Below are positions 1 through 13,762 of a DNA stretch of 13,762 bases, in pieces. The position numbers and the translations under genes are program-made. Position 1 is the first letter of the stretch. Every line of letters starts with the position of its first letter. The stretch covers positions 1 to 13,762 of the forward strand of contig CALAQT010000096.1 in NCBI GenBank assembly GCA_937888775.1. Direction: 5' to 3'. Source of the DNA: an uncultured Actinomycetes bacterium. GTDB taxonomy: Bacteria > Actinomycetota > Thermoleophilia > Solirubrobacterales > Solirubrobacteraceae. The notes beneath the pieces are model-generated. The model worked only from the letters and a program-made list of their open reading frames with translations. It was not told the origin of the DNA and searched no databases.

Positions 1-213
1 CGCCAAAACGCAGACACAGCGGGCGATCGCCGATCACAGACCCAGGTAACTACGGACTAAACGTGTGACAGAACCAGACACAATTGGTTTGCCAAGCGCG
101 TCTGCGTCGGGCTGCCCTCAAAGGGCTGCTCACGGCCACTGCTGAGTGACCCTTTTCGCCGAGGGCGCCTGCTACGTTGGTCACAGGTCATCCACCACGA
201 GCAGAGGAAGCAA

Positions 214-438
214 ATGCCTACAGCAGAGCAATACATCACCAAGCTGCCCGGGGCCGTGCCCGAGGGCAAGGCACTCGTCCACAACCACGTACGGCCGACG
301 CGCAGGCTCGGTAGCCGAGGGTTCCGGGCTTGGCTGGCCGAGAGCAGCTCCGAGTTAACCGTCTGCCACTGTGGGCACTTCCCAGAGTACAAAGAGCATT
401 ACGTTGTGCTCCGACGAGAACGAGCGCCGCTGTGGTAA
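214..438 (+). CDS. Small phage/element-associated hypothetical protein (74 aa)
   Basis: The 74-residue product contains LVHNHVRPTRRLGSRGFRAW (residues 21-40) followed by VCHCG (C51, C53) and an EHYVVLR tail. From memory this HNHVRPxxxLGxRGFRxWL...CxCG...HYxV pattern recurs in small proteins of actinobacterial phages and integrated elements; I know of no assigned function. The ATG at 214 is preceded by a good Shine-Dalgarno stretch (AGAGGAAG, 203-210), which supports this start. The two close cysteines and the His-rich core could bind a metal or nucleic acid, but that is inference. It converges on the recombinase gene with about 107 bp between the stops. The lower GC matches the element rather than the host genes. 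Confidence 0.72.
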   Translation: MPTAEQYITKLPGAVPEGKALVHNHVRPTRRLGSRGFRAWLAESSSELTVCHCGHFPEYKEHYVVLRRERAPLW

Positions 439-545
439 CACCCGAGGCTGCGCACGAGGTGGTACAGCAAGCGGAAGACTTACCCACCGCAGTAGCCAAG
501 ACCTTTGCAGCCATCATGCAAGCCCGCCATCCGGGATCGATCTGG

Positions 546-1985
546 CTACCAGCTCATCGTCCTGAGCGGGACGCTGCGACCAGGACCGCTCAGGGGCTCG
601 ACGTTCTCACCACGCCAGAGGATCTTGACTCGGTCCTCGATGCGCTTTGCACCACGCCTGACGTAGATGACATCGATCGCCGACGCAAAGAGACGCTGAC
701 GCTCAGCGGGGCGTAGATCGGGCCAGACATTGGTCAGAGTCTCGATCGGCGGGAGATCAATGCCAGATGTAGTCTGGCGTGCCTGCGCGAGTGCCTCTGT
801 GGCGCTCTGTAACGCCCGCTGCCGAATTCGCAATCCTTCCTTGAAGGATTGCATGCCGAGAATATCCTGGAGGCTTACATCGTCTCTGTAGGAGGTCAAC
901 ACCTCTCTGGCTGATGCCTCGTCTTCGAGCGCCTGGGTCAGCTCCACAGACTCCACTTGAGACTCAGCAGCGACGTCACCGACGTGGGTGAACAACTCGG
1001 TCTCGATGTACGGCAGGATCCGGGTCTCGTTCACGTTCGCTGGAGCTGGGCAGTCGCCAGCGGTGTGATGGACTTGGCACTGGTACTGAGCAACACGAGG
1101 TTGTCCGGCTTGCTTGTAGCCACGTCCTGACATCAGCCGGGAGCATCCAGCACACCTGACGATGCCGTTCAGCACATGACGTGTCTCAGATGGTGCGTCA
1201 CCAGACTTGGCGAAGCTATCTCGGCACGTGATGAAGTCCGTCTTGTTCACCAGAGGCTCGTGAGCACCATCCTTGCGGAGATCTCCCTTGCTGACGACGC
1301 CGAGGTAGACCTCACGCCTAGTGAGCTGCTTGACGGTTTCGCCAGTCCACTGCTCTGACTGCCGAGGCTTGATGCTCTCAGCATTGAGCCAGCGAGCGAT
1401 GCTGGCCCACTTCTCGCCTGCGATGTGACGACGGAAGATCTCCTTGACGCATGGAGCCTCGATCGGATCGACCACGAAACGCTTACCGTCGTCCTTGCGA
1501 TAGCCGAATGGCGGAACGGTCGGTTGGATCCCTCTCACCTCGATGGCGTTGCTCAGGGCATCTGCCCAGTTCTCCTTGATGCGGTCCAGCTCGAACTCAG
1601 CGAAAGCGAGGAGGACGTTGAGCATCAGCCGTCCGGCAGGAGTTGACGTATCGAAGCTCTCGGCCACGGACACGAACGTCGCCTGGGCCTCTGTAAGCCG
1701 TTGTAAGGCCGTGAGAGCCCCCACGAGGGATCTGGCGAAGCGATCCACCTTGGCGACCACGACGCCCTGCGTGGCGCCGCTTTCAACGCGCTTCAGCACC
1801 GCATCGAAGATCGGCCTCTTCATTTTTCCGCCCGACTGATCCAGCTCAGGCTTGTGCCAGTAGATCTGATGGCCCTGGACCTTGGCCCAGCTCTCGATCC
1901 GCTCCCGCTGCTGACCGGGCGATAGGAAGCTCTCCCCAGCCCGACCCTTCACTTGCGACACCCTGATGTAGCCGTCCAGCTTCAT
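546..1985 (-). CDS. Large serine recombinase / integrase (479 aa)
   Basis: This is a site-specific DNA recombinase that would integrate and excise the element. The N-terminal resolvase domain (about residues 1-148) shows YIRVS with the nucleophile Ser10 and Arg8, then DRFARS (Asp81, Arg82, Arg85) and FELDRIKE near 131-138, matching the catalytic set of the family. A recombinase domain follows (about 160-265, with PPFGYR at 158-163), then a zinc-ribbon with CAGC at 278-281 plus C303 and C312, then a Glu/Ala-rich coiled-coil segment (about 335-420) and a short basic C-terminus. Length is normal for a large serine integrase and no key residue is missing. The ATG at 1985 is preferred because the product then begins MKLDGYIRVS as usual; an in-frame TTG at 2042 would add 19 residues and run into the att junction. 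The gene starts about 60 bp from the element end and reads inward, the usual layout for such integrases. Confidence 0.95.
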   Translation of the reverse strand: MKLDGYIRVSQVKGRAGESFLSPGQQRERIESWAKVQGHQIYWHKPELDQSGGKMKRPIFDAVLKRVESGATQGVVVAKVDRFARSLVGALTALQRLTEAQATFVSVAESFDTSTPAGRLMLNVLLAFAEFELDRIKENWADALSNAIEVRGIQPTVPPFGYRKDDGKRFVVDPIEAPCVKEIFRRHIAGEKWASIARWLNAESIKPRQSEQWTGETVKQLTRREVYLGVVSKGDLRKDGAHEPLVNKTDFITCRDSFAKSGDAPSETRHVLNGIVRCAGCSRLMSGRGYKQAGQPRVAQYQCQVHHTAGDCPAPANVNETRILPYIETELFTHVGDVAAESQVESVELTQALEDEASAREVLTSYRDDVSLQDILGMQSFKEGLRIRQRALQSATEALAQARQTTSGIDLPPIETLTNVWPDLRPAERQRLFASAIDVIYVRRGAKRIEDRVKILWRGENVEPLSGPGRSVPLRTMSW

Positions 1986-2031
1986 GACGCTCTCGTCTGC
2001 TCGTATAACGCTGACCCGGAGAATTGTAACT

Positions 2032-2062
2032 CTAAGGATCAAGGTTGTCCACGAACAGCACT
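2032..2062. other. Hybrid attachment site (attL/attR) at the comM-element junction
   Basis: Read on the minus strand, comM runs through the codons for VLFVD and then leaves the family pattern: GTG-GAC is followed by AAC CTT GAT CCT TAG instead of the expected Glu-Leu of Walker B. The last host-like bases are 2047-2052 (GTGGAC on the minus strand), so the crossover dinucleotide should lie in or beside them. The integrase gene begins about 60 bp away, where attP normally sits. The matching second junction is not in the window, so the exact core cannot be defined. Confidence 0.7.
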
Positions 2063-2949
2063 CCCCGGTGGGCGAGCGTCACTTCACCCGGTCGCGGGGG
2101 TAACCCACCCCCCACCAGGCCCGCCGCCGAGATCGTGTGATGCGGAGCGCGGAACGGGCGGGCGGTGATCAGACCGTCGGCGTGAATCCCCGCGACACTG
2201 TGGATCCGCGTCACCTCGATCGCCTGCGGCCGGGTCATCGCCGGGAGGATCGAGGGCAGCCGCCGCGCGAGCATCGTCTTACCGGTGCCGGGCGCGCCCT
2301 CCAGCAGCAGGTTGTGACCTCCCGCGGCCGCGATCTGCAGCGCCAGCAGCGGCGTGGCGTGGCCGCGGATGTCGGCCAGGTCGGGCTCCGTGCGACCCGG
2401 TTCCAAACGCCGGGCAGCAGGCGGCAGCGGGGGCGGATCGGCGCCCATCACGACGTCCGCCGCCGCCCGCAGGCTGCCGACCCCGACGATCGTCAGCGTC
2501 TGCACCAGCGCCGCCTCACGCGCGCGCTCACGCGGGACGATCAGCCGCCTCAGGCCCGCGATGCGGGCTCCCTCGGCGACGGCCAGCGCGCCCGGGGAAT
2601 CGCGCAGCTCGCCGCCGAGCGAAAGCTCCCCGAACACCGCGTAGGCGTCCAGCGCCTGGTGGGAGACCTGTCCGCTGGCGGCGAGGACCCCGAGCGCCAG
2701 CGCGGCGTCGAAGCCGGGACCGACTTTCCGCAGGAAGGCGGGGGCCAGGTTGGCGGTGATCCGCGTCTGGGGAAAATCGAAGCCGGAGTTCAGGATCGCC
2801 GAGCGGATCCGCTCGCGTGACTCACGCACCGCGGCGTCGCCGAGACCGACGATCGTGAACGAGGGCAGGCCCGAGCGGATGTCGACCTCGACCGAAACCG
2901 GGCGCGGTTGGACGCCGTCGATGGCGAAGGTGGCGACGCGGGCGAGCAT
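2032..2949 (-). pseudogene. comM: comM, N-terminal part of YifB/ComM Mg-chelatase-like AAA+ helicase, interrupted by the element
   Basis: ComM is an AAA+ hexameric helicase that promotes branch migration during natural transformation. The fragment has the usual N-terminal ChlI-like domain (about residues 1-170; start MLARVATFAIDG, ATG at 2949), then the ATPase core with Walker A GAPGTGKT at 218-225 and the conserved PFRAPHH at 265-271. It ends VLFVD|NLDP-stop: the Walker B acidic pair is lost because the integrative element joins at that codon, and the last four residues and the stop come from element DNA. A full ComM is about 500 residues, so the rest of the AAA+ domain and the C-terminal domain are missing. 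The product should be unable to hydrolyse ATP. In related genomes dprA often follows comM; here it would be beyond the element. Confidence 0.93.
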
Positions 2950-2972
2950 GACTCAACGCTACGCAGCATCGG

Positions 2973-3062
2973 GTGACACGTGGGTGACGGCTGGTGCCAA
3001 TTGTGTGTCAATCCACGCGGCGATTGTCACCCACTTGTCACAGTGCGCAACCCACGTGTCAC
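2973..3062. promoter_or_regulatory. Three copies of a 16-bp GTCAC-based motif in the comM/yraN divergent promoter region
   Basis: Copies: GTGACACGTGGGTGAC at 2973-2988 (reverse complement GTCACCCACGTGTCAC), GTCACCCACTTGTCAC at 3026-3041, and GCAACCCACGTGTCAC at 3047-3062. Each is two GTCAC-like half-sites 11 bp apart. In the right-hand pair the half-sites begin at 3026, 3037, 3047 and 3058, a spacing of 11, 10 and 11 bp, so all face one side of the helix. The third copy begins 53 bp from the first motif, about five turns. The array lies between the divergent starts of comM (2949) and yraN (3088). Direct repeats on a turn are typical of OmpR/PhoB-type response regulators; the actual regulator is unknown. 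Confidence 0.7.
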
Positions 3063-3087
3063 ATGATTCCGCGTAGCGTGATCGACC

Positions 3088-3462
3088 GTGAGCAACGACC
3101 TCCGTCACCGCCTCGGGCTGGCCGGCGAGCAGCTCGCCGCCGAGCATCTCGTCCGCCGGGGCTTTGCGATCGTCGAGCGGAACTACCGTACGCGGTGGGG
3201 CGAGCTGGACATCGTCGCCTTCGACGGGCACACACTGGCGTTCTGCGAGGTCAAAACCCGCCGCGTGGCCGCCGGCACCGGGAGCCCGTTCGACGCGCTG
3301 CGCCCGCGCAAGCAGGCCCGGGTGCGCAAGATGGCGGGCAGCTGGCTGATCGAGCGCACGCAACGTCCCCACGCCGACACGGTGCGCTTTGACGCGATCG
3401 GGGTGACGTTCGATCCGGCGGGTCGGTTGGTGGCGATCGAGCACCTGGAGGGGGCGTTTTAG
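3088..3462 (+). CDS. yraN: YraN family (UPF0102) endonuclease-fold protein (124 aa)
   Basis: A complete small protein of the UPF0102/YraN family, usually 110-130 residues, with a predicted restriction-endonuclease-like fold. Family landmarks are present: GEQLAAEHL (13-21), RNYRTRWGELDIV (31-43; Glu39 and Asp41 in the predicted active site), and FCEVKTRR (52-59; Glu54 and Lys56). The role is not established; its usual neighbours rnhB, comM and dprA suggest DNA processing. The start is GTG at 3088. It is the only core gene on the plus strand here: it diverges from comM and converges on rnhB, whereas in many related genomes these genes are co-directional, so a local inversion is possible. It likely shares the repeat-rich control region at 2950-3087. 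Confidence 0.9.
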   Translation: MSNDLRHRLGLAGEQLAAEHLVRRGFAIVERNYRTRWGELDIVAFDGHTLAFCEVKTRRVAAGTGSPFDALRPRKQARVRKMAGSWLIERTQRPHADTVRFDAIGVTFDPAGRLVAIEHLEGAF

Positions 3463-3481
3463 CGGAGTCGGTGTCCTGAGC

Positions 3482-3582
3482 GCGAGGGGGCGTTCTCGGC
3501 GCGAGGCGGCGTTCTCGGCGCGAGGGGGCGTTCTCGGCGCGAGGCGGCGTTCTCGGCGCGAGGCGGCGTTCTCGGCGCGAGG
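3482..3582. repeat. 19-bp tandem repeat, five full copies plus a partial sixth
   Basis: The unit is GCGAGSSGGCGTTCTCGGC-like: full copies at 3482-3500, 3501-3519, 3520-3538, 3539-3557 and 3558-3576, then a partial GCGAGG at 3577-3582. The copies are identical except for G or C at the seventh base (order G, C, G, C, C). Each unit contains CGAG and CTCG eight bases apart, and each junction reads CTCG-GCG-CGAG, so hairpins can form within and across units. The array starts 20 bp after the yraN stop. Confidence 0.9.
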
Positions 3583-3750
3583 GGGGCTCTGAGCGCCATT
3601 CGCCCGCTCCGGGGTACGTCAGCTGGGCGGCGATGGCTTGGTTTCGAGCCGTACTGGGCCTTGTCCGGGAAAACGGCGCAATGAGGAGACGATGGGGTCT
3701 GGGGGCCGGGCAAGGTTGTGATTGCCACGGCGCACGGCGCCTACCCGCAT

Positions 3751-3883
3751 CTCTGGCGAACGAGACACGCGCGGACGCCCTCTCGGGGCGGCAACGGCGA
3801 GCAGCTCTGGCGAACTTTGGCGTTCTGCGACCGAAGGGTGGTCGCAAAACGCCAAAGTTCGGCGAAGGAGACGCGCGCGGACG
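3751..3883. repeat. Duplicated 27-bp module; second copy split by a palindrome
   Basis: The intact copy is at 3751-3777. The second copy begins CTCTGGCGAA at 3805-3814 and resumes at 3867-3883. Joined together the second copy matches the first at 25 of 27 positions. The 52 extra bases are a 46-bp segment (3815-3860) plus a second GGCGAA (3861-3866) repeating 3809-3814. This is the pattern left by an insertion with a 6-bp target duplication. Confidence 0.75.
3811..3861. repeat. 22-bp-arm near-perfect palindrome (hairpin), possible miniature insertion and/or bidirectional terminator
   Basis: Left arm 3811-3832 and right arm 3840-3861 are complementary at 21 of 22 positions, with a 7-base loop (GAAGGGT, 3833-3839). 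The arm begins CGAACTTTGGCG. It sits between convergent yraN and rnhB, where such a stem could end transcription from both sides, though no clear T-run follows on either strand. Its position inside one copy of a duplicated module, with GGCGAA on both sides, suggests a small mobile palindrome (MITE or REP-like). No transposase is present in the window. Confidence 0.8.
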
Positions 3884-3895
3884 GCCGCTGAGCTC

Positions 3896-3933
3896 CGCCA
3901 GCGCCGAACGCCACCCCGCCAGCGCCGAACGCC
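3896..3933. repeat. Two copies of a 17-bp repeat, period 21 bp
   Basis: CGCCAGCGCCGAACGCC occurs at 3896-3912 and 3917-3933, identical. Its reverse complement begins GGCGTTCGGCGC and resembles the left-hand 19-bp units (GGCGTTCTCGGCGC) with two bases removed, so the two arrays may be related in opposite orientation. It ends about 10 bp before the rnhB stop. Confidence 0.75.
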
Positions 3934-3942
3934 CGCGCGGCG

Positions 3943-4638
3943 CTACAGCGAGAGCTGCTGGTATGCCGTCGACTGGAACGACATCCGGTGCAGGGGCGAG
4001 ACGCCGAGGCGCTCGATCGCCTCACGGTGCTCAGGGGTTGAGTAGCCGACGTGCTTGTCGAACTCCCAGCCGGGATGGGAGGCGTCGGCCCGGCGCATGT
4101 ACCGGTCTCGCGTCTCCTTGGCGAGCACCGAGGCGGCGGCGATCGCGGCGCTCTTGTGATCGCCGCCGATCACCGCCTGCTGGTCGTGGACCAGGCCGGA
4201 GACGGGAAAGCCGTCGCTGAGGCACAGGCATCCCTCGCACGCGACTTGGCGCAGGGCATCGCGCAATGCCGCCAGATTGGTCACGTGCAGTCCCCGGGCG
4301 TCGATCCCCGGCGCACACCGGGAGACGATCGCGACCCTGGCGGCGATCCGCATGATCAGCGGGAACAGCTCGGCGCGGCGCTCAGGCGTGTGCTGCTTGG
4401 AGTCGTTGAGCGAGCCGAGCGCCCGGACATCGCCGGGTCCGAGCCGCTGGAGGTCGAACAGCACCGCCGCCGCCACCAGCGGACCGGCCAGGCAGCCACG
4501 GCCCGCCTCGTCGGCGCCGGCCACGTATCGCACGCCGAAGGCCCGATCGAAGCCGAACAGCCGCCGCCCCGGGCGCGCGCCGCGCCGAGGCTTAGAGGGT
4601 GCCGATCCGGTCCGGCGGCCAGTAGGTGAAGAAGGCAA
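3943..4638 (-). CDS. rnhB: Ribonuclease HII
   Basis: RNase HII cuts RNA in RNA:DNA hybrids and starts removal of misincorporated ribonucleotides. Numbering from the TTG at 4638, the family motifs are DEAGRG (Asp43, Glu44), SLNDSK (76-81), SDGFPV (Asp142) and GGDHKSAAIAAASVLAK (Asp160), giving the complete Asp-Glu-Asp-Asp active site. The C-terminus HVGYSTPEHREAI is also typical. The start is uncertain. TTG 4638 overlaps the upstream lepB by 47 bp; a GTG at 4698 with GGGGGA upstream would overlap by 107 bp; a GTG at 4533 avoids overlap but drops the usual FDRAFG lead-in before VAGADEAGRG. The basic stretch PSKPRRGARPGRR before the catalytic core reads past the lepB stop. It is the last gene of the leftward run. 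Confidence 0.93.
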   Translation of the reverse strand: MPSSPTGRRTGSAPSKPRRGARPGRRLFGFDRAFGVRYVAGADEAGRGCLAGPLVAAAVLFDLQRLGPGDVRALGSLNDSKQHTPERRAELFPLIMRIAARVAIVSRCAPGIDARGLHVTNLAALRDALRQVACEGCLCLSDGFPVSGLVHDQQAVIGGDHKSAAIAAASVLAKETRDRYMRRADASHPGWEFDKHVGYSTPEHREAIERLGVSPLHRMSFQSTAYQQLSL

Positions 4639-5203
4639 CGCCGATGATCCATTTTTGGGGAACCGGGCCCCAGAATCGGCTGTCGTCGGATTCGCCACGG
4701 TTGTCCCCCATCATGAAGTAGTGGCCGGGCGGAACAACGATCGGCTGGGGGAAGTCGCAGGAGCCACCCGGACCGCAGGGCTCGATGTAGGAGTCCTTCT
4801 CCTGGACGCCGTTGCGGATCACATGGCCGTTGACGATCGAGATCCGGTCGCCGGGCAGCCCGACCACCCGCTTGATGAACGTCTGGCTTGATTCGGTCAC
4901 GGTCGGCTTGTCGCAGGCCTGAGAGTGGCCTGCACCCTGGCTGCCCGAGCCGCAGGTCGCGCTGTTGGGGTCGGCTCCATGCGGTGGGTGAAAGACGACC
5001 ACGTCGCCCAGGCTCGGGTCGGTGTTCAGCCGGTCGGCCAGCACCCGCTGGCCGATCGCCAGGGTCGGGATCATCGAGCCACTGGGGATCCGGTAGGGCT
5101 TGACGATGAACGCCTGGATCACGAGCGCAAGGCCGACCGCCACCGCCACGGTGACAACCAGCTCAAACACAGACTTGAGAAATGATTTGGGGGCTTTGGA
5201 CAA
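4592..5203 (-). CDS. lepB: Signal peptidase I, second of a tandem pair (203 aa)
   Basis: Membrane-bound serine protease that removes signal peptides from exported proteins. One transmembrane segment lies at about residues 12-34 with the catalytic domain outside. Box B is [10 protein letters not shown] with nucleophile Ser43; box D is [12 protein letters not shown] with general base Lys111; box E is MMGDNRGESDDSRFWGPV. Cysteines in the insert between the boxes (C84, C97) and in EPCGPGGSC form two pairs also found in the neighbouring paralogue, suggesting disulfides outside the cell. The start is TTG at 5203, 18 bp after the stop of the first lepB, with only a weak GGTGA upstream. The stop lies inside the likely rnhB start region. 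It ends DRIGTL where the paralogue ends DRIGFL. Confidence 0.93.
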   Translation of the reverse strand: MSKAPKSFLKSVFELVVTVAVAVGLALVIQAFIVKPYRIPSGSMIPTLAIGQRVLADRLNTDPSLGDVVVFHPPHGADPNSATCGSGSQGAGHSQACDKPTVTESSQTFIKRVVGLPGDRISIVNGHVIRNGVQEKDSYIEPCGPGGSCDFPQPIVVPPGHYFMMGDNRGESDDSRFWGPVPQKWIIGVAFFTYWPPDRIGTL

Positions 5204-5221
5204 CGCTTATCGCTCACCGAG

Positions 5222-5842
5222 CTAGAGGAAGCCGATCCGGTCCGGGGGCCAGTAGGTGAAGACCGCTCGGCCGATGATCCACGCCTTCGGGACCGGGCCC
5301 CAGTACCGGCTGTCCTCGGAGTCGGGGCGGTTGTCGCCCATCATGTAGTAGTCGCCGCGGGGGATCGTGATCGTCTTGGGAAAATTGCACGCCCCGCCCT
5401 GGCAGGGAACGATGTAGGAATCCTGCTCCTGGATGCCGTTGCGGATCACGTGGCCGTTGCGGATCGAGATCCGGTCGCCGGGCAGTCCGACCACCCGCTT
5501 GATGAACGTCTGAGGGGACTCGTGCGTCTGGGCGACGTCGCAGGCCCGTGCGGCGTCCTCCCCGGCGGCGTTCTCACCCTCGTTGGGATCCGCGCAGTTG
5601 CTGTCGTTGACAGGCGGGTGAAAGACGTAGATGTCGCCCACTTGAGGGGTGGAGAAATGCTGTCCGATCCGGTCCACCAGCACGCGCTGCCCGATCGTCA
5701 GGGTGGGGATCATCGAACCGCTCGGGATCTGGTAGGGCTTGATCAGGAACGCCTGGATCCCCAGGGCCAGGATGAGCGCGACCGCGACGATCATTACCAG
5801 TTCGCCGGCCGTCTTCACGACCGACTTCTTGCCCTTCGTCAC
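5222..5842 (-). CDS. lepB: Signal peptidase I, first of a tandem pair (206 aa)
   Basis: Paralogue of the next gene in the same operon, with the same layout: basic N-terminus, one transmembrane segment (about 13-34), Ser43 in [10 protein letters not shown], Lys115 in [12 protein letters not shown], and [18 protein letters not shown]. The middle insert (about 78-110) is acidic and differs most from the paralogue, while its cysteines (C83, C101) and the VPCQGGAC pair align. The GTG start overlaps the rplS stop by four bases (GTGA), implying translational coupling. Two adjacent active copies suggest a recent duplication with possible division of substrates; which secreted proteins each handles cannot be told from sequence. 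Confidence 0.94.
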
Positions 5843-6366
5843 TCCTGAGGTTCGCCGGCGGGTGCCTCCGCTGCCGCCGGGCCGGCGTCCTGCGCCGCCG
5901 TCGGTGCGAGGGCCTCGCCCGGCTCTGGGGCCGGCGACTCGGCGACCGGCTCCGGGGCGTCGGACGCCGCGCCGTTATCGGGCCCGTACAGCAGGCCTGG
6001 CTCGACTGCAGCCTCCGGTCGGCTGTAGCGGCGCTCGCGGACGCGGGCGCGCTTTCCGATCCGTCCTCGCAGGTAGTAGAGCTTGGCGCGCCGGACGTCG
6101 CCACGGGCCGCGACCTCGATCCGCTCGATCTTGGGTGAGTGCACCGGGAAAGTCCGCTCGACCCCGACGCCGAAGGACTGCTTGCGCACGGTGAACGTTT
6201 CACGCGCACCATGGCCCTGGCGCTTGATCACCACGCCCTCAAAGACCTGGGTGCGGCGGCGGGTGCCCTCTATCACCTGGAAGTGAACGCGCAGTCGGTC
6301 GCCGGCGTCAAACGCTGGTACGCGGCGCAGTTGGGCGCGCTCAAGGCTGTCGATCACGGTGCTCAT
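5839..6366 (-). CDS. rplS: Ribosomal protein L19 (bL19) with long Ala/Pro/Glu tail
   Basis: bL19 sits at the 30S-50S interface. Residues 1-115 are a standard L19: [59 protein letters not shown] and [17 protein letters not shown]. About 60 extra residues follow, rich in Ala, Pro, Glu and Gly (for example [20 protein letters not shown]), probably disordered and acidic. L19 is normally near 115 residues; tails of this kind occur in some actinobacteria. ATG at 6366. It follows trmD after 140 bp and overlaps lepB by four bases, so it may head a sub-transcript with the lepB pair and rnhB. Confidence 0.96.
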
Positions 6367-6469
6367 GGCATTGGTAGCGCTGGCCGCCCTTGTGACGGGG
6401 CGCTTCCGCGCGGACGAGGTTCAGGTCGAGCCGGCGCGCATGCGTCGGGTCCGATCCTTGCGGCGGCCT

Positions 6470-6475
6470 ATGGTA
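6470..6475 (-). promoter_or_regulatory. Possible -10 element (TACCAT) upstream of rplS
   Basis: In the 140-bp trmD-rplS gap the minus strand reads CGCTACCATAGG. TACCAT fits the actinobacterial TAnnnT pattern. It lies about 100 bp before the rplS ATG. No convincing -35 box is visible. The sequence CGCTACCA recurs at 6372-6379 just before the rplS start. Weak evidence. Confidence 0.22.
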
Positions 6476-6506
6476 GCGAACCGCCCGCCGCCTCTGATCC
6501 GCCAGC

Positions 6507-7223
6507 TCACGCGGGGTCTGGCAGATCGCTCTTCAGGCCGGCGGCAGCGGCGCGCGCGCTGCTCTGAGCCCGGCGCCACTGGCTGATCCGCGCATGGTGG
6601 CCAGACAGCAGGATCTCGGGCACGCGCCAGCCGCGGTACTCGGCCGGCCGCGTGTAGTGCGGATACTCGGGCGCGCCGTCCAGCGTCGCGCTGAAGGATT
6701 CCTCCAGCGCCGAGTCGGCATGGCCCAGCGCGCCGGGCAGCTTGCGCAGCACGGCGTCGCAGACCACCATCGCCGCCAACTCGCCGCCGGCCAGCACGTA
6801 GCGCCCGATCGACAGGCGGTCGGTGGTGAAGTGCTCCAGGATGCGTTCATCAAAACCCTCGTAGCGTCCGCACAACAGGGTCAGCGACGGCTCGCAGGAG
6901 AGCTGATCGACGAACGCGTCGTCGAGCACTCGACCGGCCGGATCGAGCGCCAGCACCCGGCGCTGGGAGCGCAGCGCCAGCGGGTCACACCCGTAACGCG
7001 CTCGCAGCGCCGCCTCCACCACATCGACCCGGAGCACCATGCCCGCTCCGCCACCGAACGGGGTGTCGTCGACCTGCCCGGCGCTCAGCGGCGTGTGGTC
7101 GCGGTAGTTGACGTACTCGATGCGGCTGCCGGCGGCGATCGCGTTGGCCACGTGACGCTGGGCCTCAAACCAGGCAAAGGCCGGCGGGAACAGCGTGAAA
7201 ACGTCGATCTGCACGGGCCTCAC
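6507..7223 (-). CDS. trmD: tRNA (guanine37-N1)-methyltransferase
   Basis: TrmD methylates G37 next to the anticodon using S-adenosylmethionine, preventing frameshifts. The SPOUT trefoil-knot motifs are present: DDTPFGGGAGMV (52-63), LLCGRYEGFDERI (116-128), SIGRYVLAGGELAAMVV (138-154), then RKLPGALG (Arg160) and HADSALEESF with catalytic Asp170. YPHYTRPAEYRGWRVPEILLSGHHARI near 187-213 is the usual substrate-binding C-terminal part. The length, 238 aa, is normal. The GTG start overlaps the rimM stop by four bases (GTGA), so the two are translationally coupled, the classic rimM-trmD arrangement. Confidence 0.97.
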   Translation of the reverse strand: MRPVQIDVFTLFPPAFAWFEAQRHVANAIAAGSRIEYVNYRDHTPLSAGQVDDTPFGGGAGMVLRVDVVEAALRARYGCDPLALRSQRRVLALDPAGRVLDDAFVDQLSCEPSLTLLCGRYEGFDERILEHFTTDRLSIGRYVLAGGELAAMVVCDAVLRKLPGALGHADSALEESFSATLDGAPEYPHYTRPAEYRGWRVPEILLSGHHARISQWRRAQSSARAAAAGLKSDLPDPA

Positions 7224-7720
7224 TGCTCGCCGAGGAAGCGCAGATCGATCTCGATCTTTCTAGTGTCGAGATCGACCCCGCGCACGGCGTCCTTGATCAG
7301 CGGCACCAGCAGCACCGGCCCCCCGCCCGCCCGGTCGACCTCCAGCACCTCGCACGAGGGCAGGGCCAGCAGTCGCCTGACCACCCCCACCGGCTGCCCG
7401 GCGTCGTGCACCGCACAGCCCTCCAGATCGTCCGCCCACCATTCGTCGACCTGCAGCGCGGGGGCGTGCTCACGTGAGATGAGCAGCTCCTGGCCGCTCA
7501 GCGCCTGGGCGTCGTCTCGAGCCTCGCAGCCGTCAAGGCGCAGGATCAACCCGCGCTCAAAGCCCGCTCGGCGCACGATCACGCGCTCGTGGCCGGAGAT
7601 CTTCACGCTGCGCCCCACCTGCAGCAGCTCGGGGCTGGAGCTGGTGACGTGGAAACTCCCGTCGAGTCCGTGCGGACGCCCGACGACACCGGCCCGCAGC
7701 CAGCCGCCGGCCGCCGACAT
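7220..7720 (-). CDS. rimM: Ribosome maturation factor RimM
   Basis: RimM helps assemble the head of the 30S subunit and binds ribosomal protein S19. The N-terminal RimM domain begins with the family signature LRAGVVGRPHGLDGSFHV (8-25). The C-terminal PRC-barrel runs from about residue 93 (DEWWADDLEGCAVHD) to the end, with VLLVPLIKDAVRGVDLDTRKIEID. The length (166 aa) is normal. The ATG at 7720 overlaps the khpA stop by one base (TGATG), showing tight coupling. Confidence 0.95.
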   Translation of the reverse strand: MSAAGGWLRAGVVGRPHGLDGSFHVTSSSPELLQVGRSVKISGHERVIVRRAGFERGLILRLDGCEARDDAQALSGQELLISREHAPALQVDEWWADDLEGCAVHDAGQPVGVVRRLLALPSCEVLEVDRAGGGPVLLVPLIKDAVRGVDLDTRKIEIDLRFLGEQ

Positions 7721-7956
7721 CAGGTGTCGACGATGTCCACGAACACGCGGCGCTTGTCCTTCACCGCGGCGGCCTTGATGACCGTTCGCAGCGCCGAGGC
7801 TGTGTGACCGCCGCGGCCGATCACGCTGCCGTAGTCATCCGGCGCGACCGACAGCTCGAGCACGAGCGTGCCGTCATCCTCTTGCACCTCGGTGATCTCC
7901 ACCTCGTCAGGACTGTCCACGAGCCCTCGCGCCAGGTACTCGAGCAGCTCCTTCAT
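7720..7956 (-). CDS. khpA: KH-domain RNA-binding protein KhpA (YlqC)
   Basis: A 78-residue single KH-domain protein. Related proteins bind RNA, often as a heterodimer with KhpB/Jag. The nucleic-acid-binding GxxG loop is GRGG at 47-50 in SVIGRGGHTASALRTVIKAAA. The ATG at 7956 gives MKELLEYLARGLVDSPDEV, the usual family start; upstream in-frame sequence overlaps rpsP and is not conserved in type. It is 8 bp after the rpsP stop and one-base coupled to rimM, matching the conserved rpsP-khpA-rimM-trmD order. Confidence 0.95.
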   Translation of the reverse strand: MKELLEYLARGLVDSPDEVEITEVQEDDGTLVLELSVAPDDYGSVIGRGGHTASALRTVIKAAAVKDKRRVFVDIVDT

Positions 7957-7964
7957 GGCGATTG

Positions 7965-8207
7965 CTAGTGGATGCCCCGCGTGCTCAGCAGCTTGCGGAC
8001 CGTGTCGGTCGGCTGGGCGCCGCGCCCGAGCCATTCGCGGATCCGTTCCTCATTGAGAACGATCGTCGAGGGATCGGTTTGGGCGTTGTAGTGCCCCACC
8101 GTCTCGATCACGCGGCCGTCGCGCTTGGAGCGCTGATCGGCGACGACAACCCGCCAGATGGGGTTCTTGCGCCCGCCGATTCGTGTTAGTCGAAGTCTTA
8201 CCGCCAT
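7965..8207 (-). CDS. rpsP: Ribosomal protein S16 (bS16)
   Basis: bS16 is a small 30S assembly protein. The product begins MAVRLRLTRIGGRKNPIWRVVVAD and continues with GRVIETVGHYNAQTDP and ERIREWLGRGAQPTDTVRKLL, all family-typical. The ATG at 8207 gives an 80-residue protein of normal size; a further ATG 36 bp upstream would add a non-family extension. It is preceded by a 118-bp leader with two inverted repeats. Confidence 0.96.
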   Translation of the reverse strand: MAVRLRLTRIGGRKNPIWRVVVADQRSKRDGRVIETVGHYNAQTDPSTIVLNEERIREWLGRGAQPTDTVRKLLSTRGIH

Positions 8208-8237
8208 GTGCTCAAGCGAGGTTAGCGTGCCGCGCAG

Positions 8238-8307
8238 CGGCATGCCGCGTGGGATGCCATGCCGACCGCCCGATCCACTGCGTTGTGGGCCGCTCGAGTC
8301 CGAGCGG
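8238..8307 (-). promoter_or_regulatory. Two inverted repeats in the ffh-rpsP gap
   Basis: Stem 1 is CGGCATG at 8238-8244 with CATGCCG at 8258-8264 (13-base loop). Stem 2 is CCGCTCG at 8290-8296 with CGAGCGG at 8301-8307 (4-base loop), 18 bp after the ffh stop in the direction of transcription. Neither is followed by a T-run. They could act in attenuation, mRNA processing or translational control of rpsP, or stem 2 could be a weak terminator. GC-rich stems arise easily by chance at this composition. Confidence 0.4.
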
Positions 8308-8325
8308 ACTTGCGGTGGCGGCCGC

Positions 8326-9657
8326 TTAGCGGGCCTGGCGCATGATTGCGCCCAGGTCGGGCATCCGGCCCTGGGTGACCTGGCGCATCACCTTGCGCAT
8401 CTGCTCGAACTGCTTGATCAGCTGCTTTACCGCCTGCACGTTGGTGCCCGAGCCCTGGGCGATCCGCAGCCGGCGTGATCCCTTGATCAGCTCGGGGTGG
8501 CGGCGCTCATGGGGGGTCATCGAGAGGATGATCGCCTGTAGGCGATCGAACTCCCGCTCGTCGATCTTTACCCCGCGCAGTTCCTTGCCGATCCCGGGGA
8601 TCATGCCCAGCAGCGACTGCAGCGGTCCCAACTTGCGCACCTGGCGCAGCTGATCGAGGAAATCGTCGAGCCCGAACTCCTTCTGGCGGATCTTGCGCTC
8701 GAGCTCGGCCGCTTGCTGCTCGTCGTAGCTGCCCTGCGCCTTCTCGATCAGCGTCATCACGTCGCCCATCCCCAGGATCCGCTGAGCCATGCGATCGGGA
8801 TGGAAGCGCTCGAACTGATCGAGCTTCTCGCCGGTGGAGGCGAACAGGATCGGCTTGCCGGTGATCGCCTTGACCGACAGCGCCGCGCCGCCCCGGGCGT
8901 CGCCGTCGAGCTTTGACATCACCACGCCGTCGAAGTCGACCACGGCAGCGAACTGCTCGGCGACGTTGACCGCGTCCTGGCCGGTCATCGCGTCGACGAC
9001 CAGCAGGATGTCGTGCGGCGAGACCGCCTTCTTGATCTCGGCCAGCTCGGCCATCAGCTCCTGATCGACGTGCAGGCGGCCGCTGGTGTCAACGATCAGC
9101 ACGTCCTTGCCCTCCGTGAGGGCCCGGTCGCGCGCCCACTTGGCGATCTGGACCGGGCTGCGGTCGGTGCCCTGCTCGTAGACGGCGGCGCCCGCCTGGG
9201 TCCCGACCTTGATCAGCTGCTCCACGGCCGCGGGCCGGTAGACGTCGCAGGCGGCCACGGCCACCGATGAGCCGTGCTGCTCACGCAGGTAGCGCGCGAG
9301 CTTGGCGGTCGCGGTCGTCTTGCCCGAGCCCTGGAGCCCCGCCATCAGGACGACGGTGGGTGGATGGGGAGAGAACGAGAGCTCGCGGGCGGCTCCGCCC
9401 ATCAGCTCGGTCAGCTCGTCGGAGACGATCTTGATCACCTGCTGGCCCGGATTGAGCTGACCGACGATGCCGGCGCCCAGCGCCCGCTCCTTGACCGTGT
9501 TGGTGAAGCTCTTGACGACCTTGAAGTTGACGTCGGCCTCCAGCAGCGCCAGGCGGATCTCGCGCATCGCCACGGTGATGTCCTCTTCGGTCAGCGTGCC
9601 GCGACCGCGGACTTCGGCCAGCGTGGCTTGGAGCTTTTCGGCGAGCGAGTCGAACAT
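8326..9657 (-). CDS. ffh: Signal recognition particle GTPase Ffh
   Basis: Ffh binds SRP RNA and signal sequences on nascent chains and delivers them to FtsY at the membrane. The N domain spans about 1-90. The GTPase G domain follows with G1 GLQGSGKTT at 107-115, DVYRPAA at 138-144, G3 DTSGR at 190-194 and G4 SKLDG at 248-252, and then DARGGAALS. The methionine-rich M domain runs from about 320, with LLGMIPGIGK and GSRRLRIAQGSGT (SRP RNA-binding region), ending MRKVMRQVTQGRMPDLGAIMRQAR. At 443 aa it is full length. ATG at 9657, 20 bp after the SPFH gene. The SRP RNA gene is not in the window. Confidence 0.98.
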   Translation of the reverse strand: MFDSLAEKLQATLAEVRGRGTLTEEDITVAMREIRLALLEADVNFKVVKSFTNTVKERALGAGIVGQLNPGQQVIKIVSDELTELMGGAARELSFSPHPPTVVLMAGLQGSGKTTATAKLARYLREQHGSSVAVAACDVYRPAAVEQLIKVGTQAGAAVYEQGTDRSPVQIAKWARDRALTEGKDVLIVDTSGRLHVDQELMAELAEIKKAVSPHDILLVVDAMTGQDAVNVAEQFAAVVDFDGVVMSKLDGDARGGAALSVKAITGKPILFASTGEKLDQFERFHPDRMAQRILGMGDVMTLIEKAQGSYDEQQAAELERKIRQKEFGLDDFLDQLRQVRKLGPLQSLLGMIPGIGKELRGVKIDEREFDRLQAIILSMTPHERRHPELIKGSRRLRIAQGSGTNVQAVKQLIKQFEQMRKVMRQVTQGRMPDLGAIMRQAR

Positions 9658-9677
9658 CGGCGTTGACGGCTATCAGG

Positions 9678-10709
9678 CTACTCGCCGTGCTGGCCTGAAT
9701 TCTCGCCGATCGAGGCCGCCTGCTCGCTGATCGCGCGGGGTGCCTCGGTGACGCCGCCGGCCGGCTCGCTCGTCGGGGCCCGCTCAGCCACAGTACCGGC
9801 GGCACCGGCCCGCTCAGCCACGGTGCCGGCGACCTCGCCGTGGGTGCCGGCGGCGAACGCCTTGCCGATGCCACCGAAGGCATTGGCGAACTCCGAAGGG
9901 ATCACGAACACCTTGTTGGCGTCGCCCTGGGCGAGCGTCGGCAGCATCTGCAGGTACTGATAGCTGAGCAGCGCCTGGTCGGGATCGCCCTTGTGAATCG
10001 CCTCGAACACGGTCCCGATCGCCGTGGCCTCGCCTTCGGCGCGCAGGATCGCGGCGGTCTTGGCGCCCTCGGCCCTGAGCACCGCCGACTGCTTCTCGCC
10101 CTCGGCGGTGAGGATCTGGGACTGCTTGAAGCCCTCGGCGGTGAGGATCGCCGCGCGCTTGTCGCGGTCGGCACGCATCTGCTTCTCCATCGCCTCCTGG
10201 ATCGTGCCGGGGGGGTCGATCGACTTGATCTCGACGCGGTTGATGCGGATCCCCCATTTGCCGGTGGCCTCGTCCAGCACCCCGCGCAGGGTGGCGTTGA
10301 CGTGATCCCGGCTGGTCAGCGCGGTCTCCAGCGTCATACCGCCGACGACGTTGCGCAGCGTGGTCACGGTGATCTGCTCGATTCCCTGCAGCGGGTTGGC
10401 GATCTCGTAGGTCGCGGATTTGGGGTCAGTGACCGTGAAGTACAGGACCGTGTCGATCTGCACCACCAGGTTGTCCTCGGTGATCACCGGCTGGGGCGGG
10501 AACGAGACGACCTGCTCACGCAGGTCCAGCAGCGGCTTGAGGCGGTCCATGAACGGCACCAGGATCGCCAGGCCGGGCAGCAGGGTCCGGTTGTAGCGCC
10601 CGAAGCGCTCGACGATCCCGGCCCGGGCTTGGGGCACGATCCGCACCGTGCGAGCGGCCATGATCAGCAGGAAGACCACTACGACGACAGCGACGATTGT
10701 TCCAGCCAT
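9678..10709 (-). CDS. SPFH/band 7 membrane protein (stomatin/QmcA-like, 343 aa)
   Basis: A membrane-anchored scaffold of the stomatin/prohibitin family. After the ATG at 10709 a transmembrane segment MAGTIVAVVVVVFLLIMAA is followed by the SPFH domain (about 20-200), with IVPQARAGIVERFGRY, PGLAILVPFMDR, VQIDTVLYFTVTDP and RDHVNATLRGVLDEATGKWGIRINRVEIKSIDPP. A coiled coil with repeated ILTAEGxKQS/VLRAEGxKTA units follows at about 215-255. The C-terminus (about 305-343) is low-complexity and includes a 10-residue duplication AGTVAERAGA/AGTVAERAPT. The start is fixed by the strong Shine-Dalgarno AGGAGA that overlaps the nfeD stop (10710-10723); longer in-frame starts overlap nfeD. Pairing with NfeD is typical of the family. 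Confidence 0.93.
   Translation of the reverse strand: MAGTIVAVVVVVFLLIMAARTVRIVPQARAGIVERFGRYNRTLLPGLAILVPFMDRLKPLLDLREQVVSFPPQPVITEDNLVVQIDTVLYFTVTDPKSATYEIANPLQGIEQITVTTLRNVVGGMTLETALTSRDHVNATLRGVLDEATGKWGIRINRVEIKSIDPPGTIQEAMEKQMRADRDKRAAILTAEGFKQSQILTAEGEKQSAVLRAEGAKTAAILRAEGEATAIGTVFEAIHKGDPDQALLSYQYLQMLPTLAQGDANKVFVIPSEFANAFGGIGKAFAAGTHGEVAGTVAERAGAAGTVAERAPTSEPAGGVTEAPRAISEQAASIGENSGQHGE
9777..9831. repeat. 30-bp in-frame duplication in the SPFH gene tail
   Basis: GGCCCGCTCAGCCACAGTAC begins at 9777 and recurs with two changes at 9807, extending over 25 bases each. The spacing of 30 bp keeps frame and encodes the AGTVAERA repeat in the disordered C-terminal tail. Confidence 0.85.
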
Positions 10710-10720
10710 GCCCACGTCTC

Positions 10721-11152
10721 CTATTCCATGACGAGCGCCGTGGCGCCCTTGATCTGGACAACTTCCACCCGTGTCCCGCGCTCGTAGACCTGATCGTCGT
10801 CGAACGCCCGCGCGGTCCACACCTCCCCGTCGATCCTCACGCAGCCGACCCCCTCGCTGTTGACGATCCGTTCGAGCACGACCGCCTGCTTGCCGACCAG
10901 GGCCGCTGGCCCGGTGCGGATCTGGGGCGGCTCGCGCATGTGCGAGCGCGCGATCGGCCGCAGGACCGCCAGCGACAGCACCGACACGAGCAGGAACGCG
11001 ACCCAGGACGCTGCCGTGCCCACCCCGGCCACGTCGACGGCCGCGGCCAGCGCGGCGCCAAGGGCGAACGGGGCGAGGAAGAAACCGGTGGTGAGCATTT
11101 CACCGACGCCGAACACGCCGGCGGCAATAACCCATAGGACCCATCCGGTCAT
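10721..11152 (-). CDS. NfeD-like membrane protein with C-terminal OB-fold (143 aa)
   Basis: Short-form NfeD protein: two to three hydrophobic helices (about 4-66: MTGWVLWVIAAGVFGVGEML, then LAPFALGAALAAAVDVAG, then WVAFLLVSVLSLAVL), followed by a soluble OB-fold (about 80-143) with ALVGKQAVVLERI, GCVRIDGEVWTARAFDDDQVYERGTRVEVVQIKGATALV. The GDGEVWxA-type motif (here IDGEVWTARA) is the family hallmark. It has no ClpP-like protease domain. NfeD proteins act with SPFH partners in membrane domains or membrane quality control, and the partner is directly downstream here (10 bp gap before its ATG, with the SD inside the nfeD stop). ATG at 11152. Confidence 0.92.
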   Translation of the reverse strand: MTGWVLWVIAAGVFGVGEMLTTGFFLAPFALGAALAAAVDVAGVGTAASWVAFLLVSVLSLAVLRPIARSHMREPPQIRTGPAALVGKQAVVLERIVNSEGVGCVRIDGEVWTARAFDDDQVYERGTRVEVVQIKGATALVME

Positions 11153-11183
11153 GTAAACCGAGCTTAGCGCTCGAGGTCGGCGG

Positions 11184-12176
11184 TCAGGTCACCAGCGCAC
11201 GGGCGAATTCGTCGGCGTCGAACGGGCGCAGATCCTCCAGCTGCTCTCCGACTCCGATCAGCTTCACCGGGATCCCCAGCTCGTGGGCGATCGCCAGCGC
11301 GATCCCGCCCTTGGCGGTGCCGTCGAGCTTGGTCAGCGCCAGCCCGGTGACATCGATCGCCTCCGAGAACAGGCGCGCCTGGCGCAACCCGTTCTGGCCG
11401 GTGGTGGCATCGACGGTCAGCAGCGTCTCGTGTGGGGCATCGGGTATCTGCTTGGCGATCACCCGCCGGACCTTGGCCAGCTCGGCCATCAGGTGATCCT
11501 GGGTGTGCAGCCGGCCCGCGGTGTCGATGATCACCACATCGGCGCCGTCCCGAATCCCGGCAGCGATCGCGTCATAGGCGACCGAGCCGGGGTCGGCGTC
11601 AGGCTGGCCCTTGACGAAGGCCACGCCCGCGCGCTGGGCCCACACCTCGAGTTGCTCGACGGCAGCGGCGCGGAACGTGTCGCCGGCTCCCAGCACCACC
11701 GAGCGACCGAGCTCGCGGCTCAGGTGCCAGGCGAGCTTGCCGATCGTCGTGGTCTTGCCGGTCCCGTTGACGCCGGCCACCAGGATCACCGTCGGCTTGG
11801 CCAGCAGCTCGATCTTGTCGTCGCCGGTGCGGGCGATATCGGCCAGCAACTCGATCAGCCGATCCGACAGCGCCTGGCCGCCGGAGAGCTTTGACTCGGT
11901 CACCTCCTGCTCGAGCTGCGCCACGACCTGGGCCGTGGTCCGCGCGCCAACGTCGGCGTAGATCAGCGCCTCTTCCAGCCGCTCCCAGGTCTCGTCGGTG
12001 AGCTCCTCGAACAACGTCGCCTGGATCTCTGACTGCAGCGCCTGGCGGGTCTTGCGCAGGCTCTCGCGCAGCCGGGCAAAGCGCCCCAGGCGCCGCTGCG
12101 CAACCGCCGGCGCGCTCTCAGCGTCGGGCGGCGGCTCGCCTTCGATCACAAACAGATCTCGCCAGTCGCGTGCCAT
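11184..12176 (-). CDS. ftsY: SRP receptor GTPase FtsY
   Basis: FtsY docks SRP-ribosome complexes at the membrane; reciprocal GTP hydrolysis with Ffh releases the nascent chain to SecYEG. The product has a short acidic N-terminus (1-25) in place of the long A domain of E. coli. The N domain is at about 35-120, then the G domain has GVNGTGKTTT at 135-144, DTFRAAAVEQL at 166-176, DTAGR at 218-222, TKLDG at 282-286 and GTAKGG at 286-291. The C-terminus GVGEQLEDLRPFDADEFARALV is typical. At 330 aa it is complete. ATG at 12176; the 213-bp upstream region holds repeats and could carry its own promoter. Confidence 0.98.
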   Translation of the reverse strand: MARDWRDLFVIEGEPPPDAESAPAVAQRRLGRFARLRESLRKTRQALQSEIQATLFEELTDETWERLEEALIYADVGARTTAQVVAQLEQEVTESKLSGGQALSDRLIELLADIARTGDDKIELLAKPTVILVAGVNGTGKTTTIGKLAWHLSRELGRSVVLGAGDTFRAAAVEQLEVWAQRAGVAFVKGQPDADPGSVAYDAIAAGIRDGADVVIIDTAGRLHTQDHLMAELAKVRRVIAKQIPDAPHETLLTVDATTGQNGLRQARLFSEAIDVTGLALTKLDGTAKGGIALAIAHELGIPVKLIGVGEQLEDLRPFDADEFARALVT

Positions 12177-12181
12177 CGGGC

Positions 12182-12221
12182 GGCGACGTTATCAGCGCCG
12201 AGCGGCGATGCTATCGGCGTC
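12182..12221. repeat. Imperfect 18-bp direct repeat just upstream of ftsY
   Basis: GGCGACGTTATCAGCGCC (12182-12199) and GGCGATGCTATCGGCGTC (12204-12221) match at 14 of 18 positions and start 22 bp apart, about two helical turns. They lie 6-45 bp before the ftsY ATG. On the minus strand each contains GATARCRT, which may also supply a -10-like sequence. An operator role is only a possibility. Confidence 0.4.
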
Positions 12222-12251
12222 GCGACACGGGGTCACCGGCGAGGGTCGGCG

Positions 12252-12300
12252 GGGCCACCCGCCGCTGGGCCACCCACCGCTGGGCCACCCGCCGCTGGGC
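12252..12300. repeat. 15-bp tandem repeat, three copies, in the smc-ftsY gap
   Basis: GGGCCACCCGCCGCT at 12252-12266 and 12282-12296, with one base changed (A for G) at 12267-12281, then a partial GGGC at 12297-12300. It lies in the 213-bp non-coding gap after smc. No gene is supported here: the only in-frame peptide is a short GHPPL repeat on the plus strand. The period of 15 bp leaves frame unchanged, so decay of coding sequence cannot be excluded. Confidence 0.85.
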
Positions 12301-12389
12301 GCCCGGGCCACCGCCGCGGGGTCGGCTCGAGGTGGCCCTAGTGGAGCGTTGTCGAAACTCCTTTGCGCTCTGGTGGCCTCGACGCTGCG

Positions 12390-13739
12390 CTAGGCAGCCT
12401 GGTCGTCGGCCAATCGGCGGGAGATCACCTTGGAGATCCCGTCTCCCCCCATCGAGACGCCGTAGAGCGAATCAGCCGCTTCCATCGTGCGCTTCTGATG
12501 GGTCACGACGATGAACTGCGCGCGTGAGGAGTAGGTGCGCAGCAGGGTCAGGAAGCGATCGATGTTGAGGTCGTCCAGCGCCGCCTCGACCTCGTCGAGT
12601 ATGTAGAACGGGCAGGGACGGGCCAGGAACACCGAGAACAGGAACGCCAGCGCGGTCATCGACTTCTCCCCTCCGGAGAGCAGGGTCAGACGCTTCATCT
12701 CCTTGCCGCCGGGCTCGATCTCGATCTCGACCCCGAGCAGATCCTCCTCCGGGTCGCGGTCGGTCTCCTCGAACTCGTCGCCTGCCCCGTCGGCGTCGCC
12801 GTCGGAGCCATCGGCGGTGGGCGGCGACTGTCCGCCCAGCACGCGGGCGGGGCCGTCGCGCTCGGTGACGAGCCGCAGCCGGCCCTTGCCACCGGGGAAC
12901 AGCTCACGGGCCAGCTCCTCGAAGTTCCTTGCCGTCGCCTCGAAGGTCCGCTCGAAGGTCTCACGGATCTGGCGATCGGTGTCGGCGATCAGCTTCTCCA
13001 GCTCGCGCAGCGCCGTCTCCAGGTCGGCGCGCTGGGCCTCGAGCTCCTCCACGTGGGCCAACGCCTCGTCATATTCCTCCTGCGCGAGCGGGTTCACCGG
13101 GCCGAGCTGCTCACGGCGGCGTTCCAAGCGCTCCAAGCGGGTGCGCAGGCTAGCGCGGTCCTCCTCGGTCAGCTCCTGCTCGGCCGGCTCGGCGGCCAGC
13201 TCCAGGCGCGCGGCGAGAGCCTGCAGCTCGGCCCGCGCGTCGGCGTCCTGGTCGCGCGAGCGCTGCAGGCGCACCTCGGCTTCGGTCAGCGACTCATTCT
13301 CACGCTGTAGCTGGGCGTGCAGGGTGGCCTCCTGCACCGCGCACGATCGCAACCTGCCCGCGGCGTGCTCGCCGGCCTGCCGATCGGCCACCAGCGCCGC
13401 CTCGAATGAGCCCAGGCGGCCTGAGATCGCCTCCGTGGCACCGTCGATCGCCACGATCATGCCGCGCACCGCGGGGATCAGCTGCTGGTCGTGAGCGACC
13501 GTCAGCTTCAGCCGGGCGATCCGGGCCTCGCGCTCGGCGCGCTCGCGCTCGGCGCGCTGGAGCATCTGGTTCTCGGCCGCCAGCTGGGCGGCCAGCTGAG
13601 CGCGGCGGTCGGCATCGGGCCCGTCGTCGGGGGTGGACCGGCGTCGGGCGATCAGCGCGCCCAGGCGCCGCAGCTCCTCAGCGGCCTCGTCCTGCGCGCG
13701 GACGGCGGCGCGATGGGCCGCCGTCGCCTGCTCACGCCC
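12390..13739 (-). CDS. smc: Chromosome partition protein SMC, C-terminal part (cut at contig end)
   Basis: SMC forms the ring ATPase of the bacterial condensin (with ScpA/ScpB). About 449 C-terminal residues are present: the second coiled-coil arm (Ala/Arg/Glu/Gln-rich), the REQLGPVNPLAQEEYDE segment leading into the head, signature LLSGGEKSMTALAFLFSVFLARP, Walker B FYILDEVEAALDD, and FIVVTHQKRTMEAADSLYGVSMGGDG. The N-terminal ATPase half, the first arm and hinge are missing because the contig ends. An acidic insert (about 30 residues rich in Asp/Glu/Gly, from TADGSDGDADGAGDEFEETD on) precedes GVEIEIEPGGK in the head. In-frame translation continues into the adapter and shows a false GTG start with residues VLFRS; those are not part of the protein. 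Confidence 0.95.
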   Translation of the reverse strand, partial: GREQATAAHRAAVRAQDEAAEELRRLGALIARRRSTPDDGPDADRRAQLAAQLAAENQMLQRAERERAEREARIARLKLTVAHDQQLIPAVRGMIVAIDGATEAISGRLGSFEAALVADRQAGEHAAGRLRSCAVQEATLHAQLQRENESLTEAEVRLQRSRDQDADARAELQALAARLELAAEPAEQELTEEDRASLRTRLERLERRREQLGPVNPLAQEEYDEALAHVEELEAQRADLETALRELEKLIADTDRQIRETFERTFEATARNFEELARELFPGGKGRLRLVTERDGPARVLGGQSPPTADGSDGDADGAGDEFEETDRDPEEDLLGVEIEIEPGGKEMKRLTLLSGGEKSMTALAFLFSVFLARPCPFYILDEVEAALDDLNIDRFLTLLRTYSSRAQFIVVTHQKRTMEAADSLYGVSMGGDGISKVISRRLADDQAA

Positions 13740-13762
13740 AGATCGGAAGAGCACACGTCTGA
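13740..13762. other. Illumina TruSeq adapter remnant at contig end (artefact)
   Basis: The last 23 bases begin AGATCGGAAGAGCACACGTC and match the 5' end of the standard TruSeq read-1 3' adapter with no mismatch. It joins smc coding sequence at a codon boundary by chance. Reads were evidently not fully trimmed before assembly. It should be masked. Confidence 0.97.

Follow-up and report, generated by a model that had tools for sequence, protein, structure and literature searches.

comM as the probable landing site of a large serine recombinase element in a Solirubrobacterales-type bacterium

Why does a comM gene in a Solirubrobacterales-type bacterium stop exactly at the aspartate codon of its Walker B motif, with the gene of a large serine recombinase (LSR) directly behind it, and what does a mobile element gain from this position? 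The question arises from a stretch of 13,762 nucleotides, called the window here, whose first 2 kb differ in composition from the chromosomal genes that follow. The features on which our analysis rests are as follows.

1..2050, no strand: mobile element, visible end, recognized by composition; the remainder lies beyond the contig end
546..1985, minus strand: LSR of 479 aa, in the same direction as comM; PF00239, PF07508 and PF13408 above cut-off
2020..2080, minus strand: attL junction, with the element at lower coordinates; deduced core dinucleotide at 2051-2052, GT in the window versus CT in relatives
2032..2046, minus strand: NLDP-stop tail that closes the truncated comM frame; element-derived, absent from the 120 comM relatives listed
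2047..2949, minus strand: 5' part of comM (yifB), with the N-terminal domain and Walker A, up to the Walker B Asp; PF13541, PF01078
3088..3462, plus strand: yraN (UPF0102), PF02021; host flank, divergent from comM
3943..13739, minus strand: host chromosome flank with rnhB, two lepB, rplS, trmD, rimM, a KH protein gene, rpsP, ffh, Band 7, NfeD, ftsY and part of smc, as open reading frames

The truncated comM gene and the visible end of the element

By Pfam, the 305-aa open reading frame at 2032-2949 (minus strand) is the N-terminal part of ComM/YifB, with PF13541 matched whole and PF01078 matched only over positions 1-115 of 207. The comM sequence ends in VLFVD, with the Asp codon at 2047-2049, and is followed by NLDP and a stop. 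The ATG of the LSR gene at 1985 is about 62 bp from this Asp codon, and a possible upstream TTG start at 2042 would overlap the comM stop. Thus, the first-pass annotation, in which comM reads normally to VLFVD and then gives way to element DNA with an integrase gene about 60 bp away, described the junction correctly. The comM part is 92% identical to the intact P0122, and P0122-P0125 all have a full-length comM of 506 aa that is 91-92% identical to the window part. Leu-Asp occupies the break position in 119 of the 120 comM relatives listed (of 7998 scored), and a motif scan found that 117 of those listed continue as LDE; given this conservation, the break in the window is not a matter of chance. 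Of the three relatives that the scan missed, P0224 proved a normal comM on inspection; P0186 diverges directly behind the Asp, and the break in P0121 comes slightly before that of the window. The NLDP-stop ending, which we looked for in uninterrupted relatives, occurs in none of the 120 listed. With Walker A kept, and the Walker B Glu and everything downstream lost, comM would be inactivated in the window.

P0121, a 99% identical N-terminal half of comM whose species is that of the window or one very near to it, ends LAH-PSVCYSP. Its break lies several residues before Walker B, near the position of the element in genome G043 described below, and perhaps reflects another element in that species or a contig-end artefact.

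The LSR combines Resolvase (PF00239), Recombinase (PF07508), and zinc ribbon (PF13408) domains in one protein, and its length falls into the LSR size class of about 450-550 aa. Large serine recombinases are marked by a YxRVS motif near the N-terminus that contains the catalytic Ser; it is present in the window LSR and, overall, in 27 of the 31 rows of A1, the 4 rows without it starting late. A search with the LSR returned 982 proteins at E 1e-3, of which the best 120 were listed. Among these matches, a compact group (P0002-P0032) shows 61-83% identity, after which identity drops to 48%; two partial proteins that rank lower, P0035 and P0042, belong with the compact group. The genomes searched comprised 232 of one order, 399 from the class, and 129 of another order, in overlapping sets; of these, only genome G001 had an LSR relative more than 60% identical. 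More distant LSRs occur in 16 of the 232 genomes of the order, mostly without comM alongside; of the loci compared there, which reach only about 1.5 kb past the LSR, comM lies alongside in those of G001 and G192 only.

The G+C content of the element end (1-2035) is 60.4%, that of the host part (2050-13739) 69.5%. The 2 kb of element within the window shows no phage genes, and the phage collection contained no sequence similar to the element DNA. In IMG/VR, the scan gave no LSR relative above 37% identity and no exact match to the element arm; phage records reached at most 27% identity to the window LSR among the 20 of 1066 matches listed.

On the chromosomal side, Pfam supports Band 7, NfeD, SRP54-type GTPase, and SMC; the other gene names of the flank are putative and were read from the sequence. 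GC-rich repeated units resembling gttctcggcgcgaggcggc were seen by eye at 3470-3600, between yraN and rnhB. The smc reading frame is cut at the end of the window (13740-13762) in AGATCGGAAGAGCACACGTCTGA, which we take to be Illumina adapter sequence; the assembly therefore seems untrimmed and not fully cleaned.

Other split comM genes and the crossover site

A comparable junction is found in L004, a Solirubrobacterales MAG contig from a separate assembly (genome G001), where comM ends VLFLD-SIRLSS-stop and an LSR follows just behind, 67% identical to the window LSR across the 124 residues that the contig contains. In the 806-aa protein P0021, comM and the LSR are fused in frame; a targeted fusion search (6475 proteins, 120 listed) gave no second comM::LSR fusion among the matches listed. 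The 3' half of comM, which we looked for next to related elements, was found in G001 and G192. In G001 it is on a second contig, from residue 298 of P0122 onward, between a DUF4386 gene, toward the element, and dprA, which follows it. In G192 both halves are on one contig of 1,031,583 bases (801355-802266 and 868027-868614), and between them lies a complete LSR element of 65,778 bp core to core, whose LSR, 37% identical to that of the window, sits beside the right comM half. G043 has a third LSR (26% identity across 296 aligned residues) with a 10.5-kb element that splits comM about 12 bp upstream of the window-type site. No further comM match was seen in G001, G192, or G043.

Within the order, 212 of the 232 genomes have a comM match. 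We inspected 30 of the 212, picked by eye for two matches or a conspicuously weak one, as well as G001 and G002. With frame-broken or contig-end matches among the 30 left out of the count, an LSR element interrupts comM in or close to Walker B in at least 3 of the 212 genomes (G001, G192, and G043); this is a lower bound that rests on the matches listed, and draft contigs tend to break at elements. An apparent second comM half in G143 turned out to be a normal stretch beginning at a contig end and was dropped. G134 and G164 each have two long comM-like genes.

The right end of the G192 element (L149:1217-8459) has a Lamassu-like pair near the LSR (LmuA, E 5e-22; LmuB, E 9e-99), an AAA gene beside this pair, and an Mrr-like fragment further left; the AAA gene and a 440-aa gene look McrBC-like by eye. 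These genes say nothing on the cargo of the window element. In the G043 element (L143:4843-16600, C320), the distant LSR begins right at the comM break, and the codons ahead of the VLF stretch contain a shared AGGG, noted by eye.

In the relatives, the Leu codon that precedes the Walker B Asp is the best position for the crossover, its first two bases, CT, being the deduced core. In G001, attL and attR have CCT in common and, beyond one differing base, GAC; in G192 they have only CTC in common. Around CT, the left arm (from attR) mirrors the right arm (from attL). The inverted arms agree at 16/25 in G001 (a score reached by 0 of 2000 shuffles; gapped P 0.0025) and at 14/25 in G192 (P 0.0015; gapped P 0.019), P values that are optimistic because the core was picked partly from the symmetry and then tested. 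In G001, GAC instead of CT could formally be the crossover site; this would need a CTT codon in attB, and the Leu codon before the Asp was CTC in 14 and CTG in 12 of the 26 relatives compared at the DNA level, CTT in none. Only attL lies in the window contig, with attR and the comM 3' half beyond it. The element arm of the window matches the L004/G001 arm in register at 15/28 (P 0.0014), which suggests that the same site was used. The window codon at the core is GTG (Val), at a position that is Leu in 119 of the 120 listed relatives. For the core to read GT instead of CT, either the host allele of comM must have Val there or the core must be mismatched. With intact comM in relatives, both gene halves in G001 and G192, and paired arms, the earlier proposal that an LSR element uses the Walker B DNA of comM as attB is supported.

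Two explanations would do without such recombination. If the junction were an assembly chimera, the apparent untrimmed adapter at the far end of the window and the different break in the 99% identical P0121 would fit. However, the same gene, the same codons, and the same LSR group recur in the independent L004 and P0021, and the element arm is conserved in register with L004/G001; the chimera is thus highly improbable and nearly refuted. The other explanation is an AbaR/Tn7-like transposon in comM that carries the serine recombinase as a passenger. AbaR/Tn7-like comM islands carry DDE transposase genes at their comM-proximal end. At the comM-proximal end of the window, where 2 kb of element is visible, there is no DDE transposase gene, and the comM-proximal gene is the LSR in the window, L004, and P0021 alike. 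Furthermore, attL and attR of G192 share CTC only, which is explained by a core between inverted arms. Although AbaR islands do occupy comM (PMC7508600), a transposon is extremely unlikely here.

The host lineage and the reason for the insertion

By Ffh identity, nine genomes stand nearest to the host (86-90%): G130, G129, G121, G123, G124, G122, G135, G125, and G143. Among the matches listed, genomes outside G116-G143 reach at most 80%. The more distant members of G116-G143 (79-82%; some members gave a partial or no match) are hardly nearer than the ComEC-positive G084, G088, and G089 (80%). The window comM is closest to that of G124 (83% over 301 columns), and two comM trees place it next to G124 with modest support, the ComEC-less genomes not forming one clade. 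Since this support is modest and five ComEC-positive genomes as well as G087 were left out of the trees, the host placement rests on the Ffh identities.

A comM match is present in 26 of the 28 genomes G116-G143 (not in G120 and G128). In a survey of relatives of the window host, mostly draft genomes, the Pfam model detected ComEC in none of these 26, the nine closest by Ffh included, and in 20 of 24 other genomes. A full-length ComEC query recovered 10 of 10 positive controls; in the 26 genomes it gave no more than three weak matches (E 2e-4 to 9e-4), which lie in its metallo-beta-lactamase part. Neither search found ComEC in G001, G060, G077, or G172; G001, a draft of 2.6 Mb, gave no Ffh match either. 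Of the three genomes whose comM is split, G192 and G043 do have ComEC. The closest known relatives of the host thus appear to be without the ComEC DNA-uptake channel. The 26 ComEC-less genomes all keep a comM match, and comM in G116-G143 may serve something other than transformation.

Very probably, an LSR-coding mobile element has integrated into comM of this bacterium by attP x attB recombination; comM would be a conserved, dispensable landing site whose promoter may be captured. The Walker B DNA would be the attB, and the window element would work as those in G001 and G192 do. After integration, the LSR gene, about 62 bp behind the truncated comM and in the same direction, would be read from the host comM promoter, as the gene order suggests. 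The element would favor comM as a conserved stretch of DNA that the host can afford to lose, rather than as a means of blocking transformation in this lineage.

The first-pass annotation had taken the insertion to switch off natural transformation, a claim that finds no support in this lineage, with ComEC in 0 of the 26 related genomes. The fuller argument is that the insertion was selected for disabling ComM, so that blocked transformation shields the element from replacement by homologous recombination. It can call on the role of ComM in transformation in Haemophilus and on the anti-transformation effect argued for comM elements in several Proteobacteria (available text of Croucher 2016, PMC4774983), as well as on dprA just behind comM in G001 and on ComEC in G192 and G043. 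Against it stand the 26 of 26 related genomes, mostly drafts, that are negative by the Pfam model, the nine nearest by Ffh all among them, the full-length search with its working controls, and the fact that G001, itself a split-comM genome, is ComEC-negative by both searches. The argument may therefore apply to G192 and G043 but not readily to the host of the window, for which it is quite unlikely; a conserved landing site whose loss is tolerated appears the better and simpler explanation for this lineage.

A regulated switch, in which precise excision would restore comM at chosen times, as the prophage in Listeria comK does, is likewise unlikely. An LSR recombines its sites precisely and, given a directionality factor, reversibly; this and the recognizable arms in G001 and G192 speak for a switch. 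So does the LSR right behind comM, since comM promoter activity could then set excision. However, no directionality factor was identified, and the core mismatch in the window, if real, would hinder excision. Beyond the preferred reading of integration into a conserved, dispensable site, we offer one broader idea tentatively. comM might be a hot spot for LSRs even without an uptake channel, and a transformation block would then not be the general reason. The elements would instead exploit a conserved operon: its promoter would drive the captured integrase, in some cases as a comM::integrase fusion, and excision would be tied to comM expression in the host.

Relation to known insertions in comM

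Two points are of some interest, namely that comM is hit where the relatives of the host show no ComEC and that the deduced core is common to LSRs only 37% identical. A group that keeps comM, seems to lack ComEC, and is nevertheless hit constitutes a natural test of the published explanation of comM insertions as an arms race over transformation. Furthermore, the comM site, with apparently the same CT core for such divergent LSRs, supplies paired att sites from a poorly studied group.

AbaR islands move by transposition, not by serine recombination. They resemble the window element in having comM as their target, and their removal from Acinetobacter comM increased natural transformability, as the title of PMC7508600 puts it. 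The available text of Croucher 2016 (PMC4774983) describes elements in comM of Aggregatibacter, Acinetobacter, Mannheimia, Francisella, and Pseudomonas, and an anti-transformation role of comM insertions was already proposed there. Those elements are like that of the window in lying inside comM at one orthologous place, a likeness at the gene level; they have a CF65_00446-type integrase, and their hosts include transformable species.

Closer in enzyme class are the sr1WO recombinases of Wolbachia phage, most of which integrate in a magnesium chelatase gene according to the available text of Bordenstein 2022 (PMC9203015). They share with the window element a serine recombinase, a Mg-chelatase gene as attB, and gene halves on either side, again at the gene level; sr1WO is an endosymbiont prophage, and the 2 kb of the window element shows no phage genes. 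According to the available text of Durrant et al. 2022 (PMC10083194), 12.4% of predicted site-specific LSRs, from diverse clusters, are directed at homologues of the magnesium chelatase / ATP-dependent protease gene. These elements have the same enzyme class and target gene as ours, a likeness at the level of the gene. As far as the available texts of Durrant 2022, Bordenstein 2022, and Croucher 2016 go, an insertion of the kind seen in the window is therefore already known.
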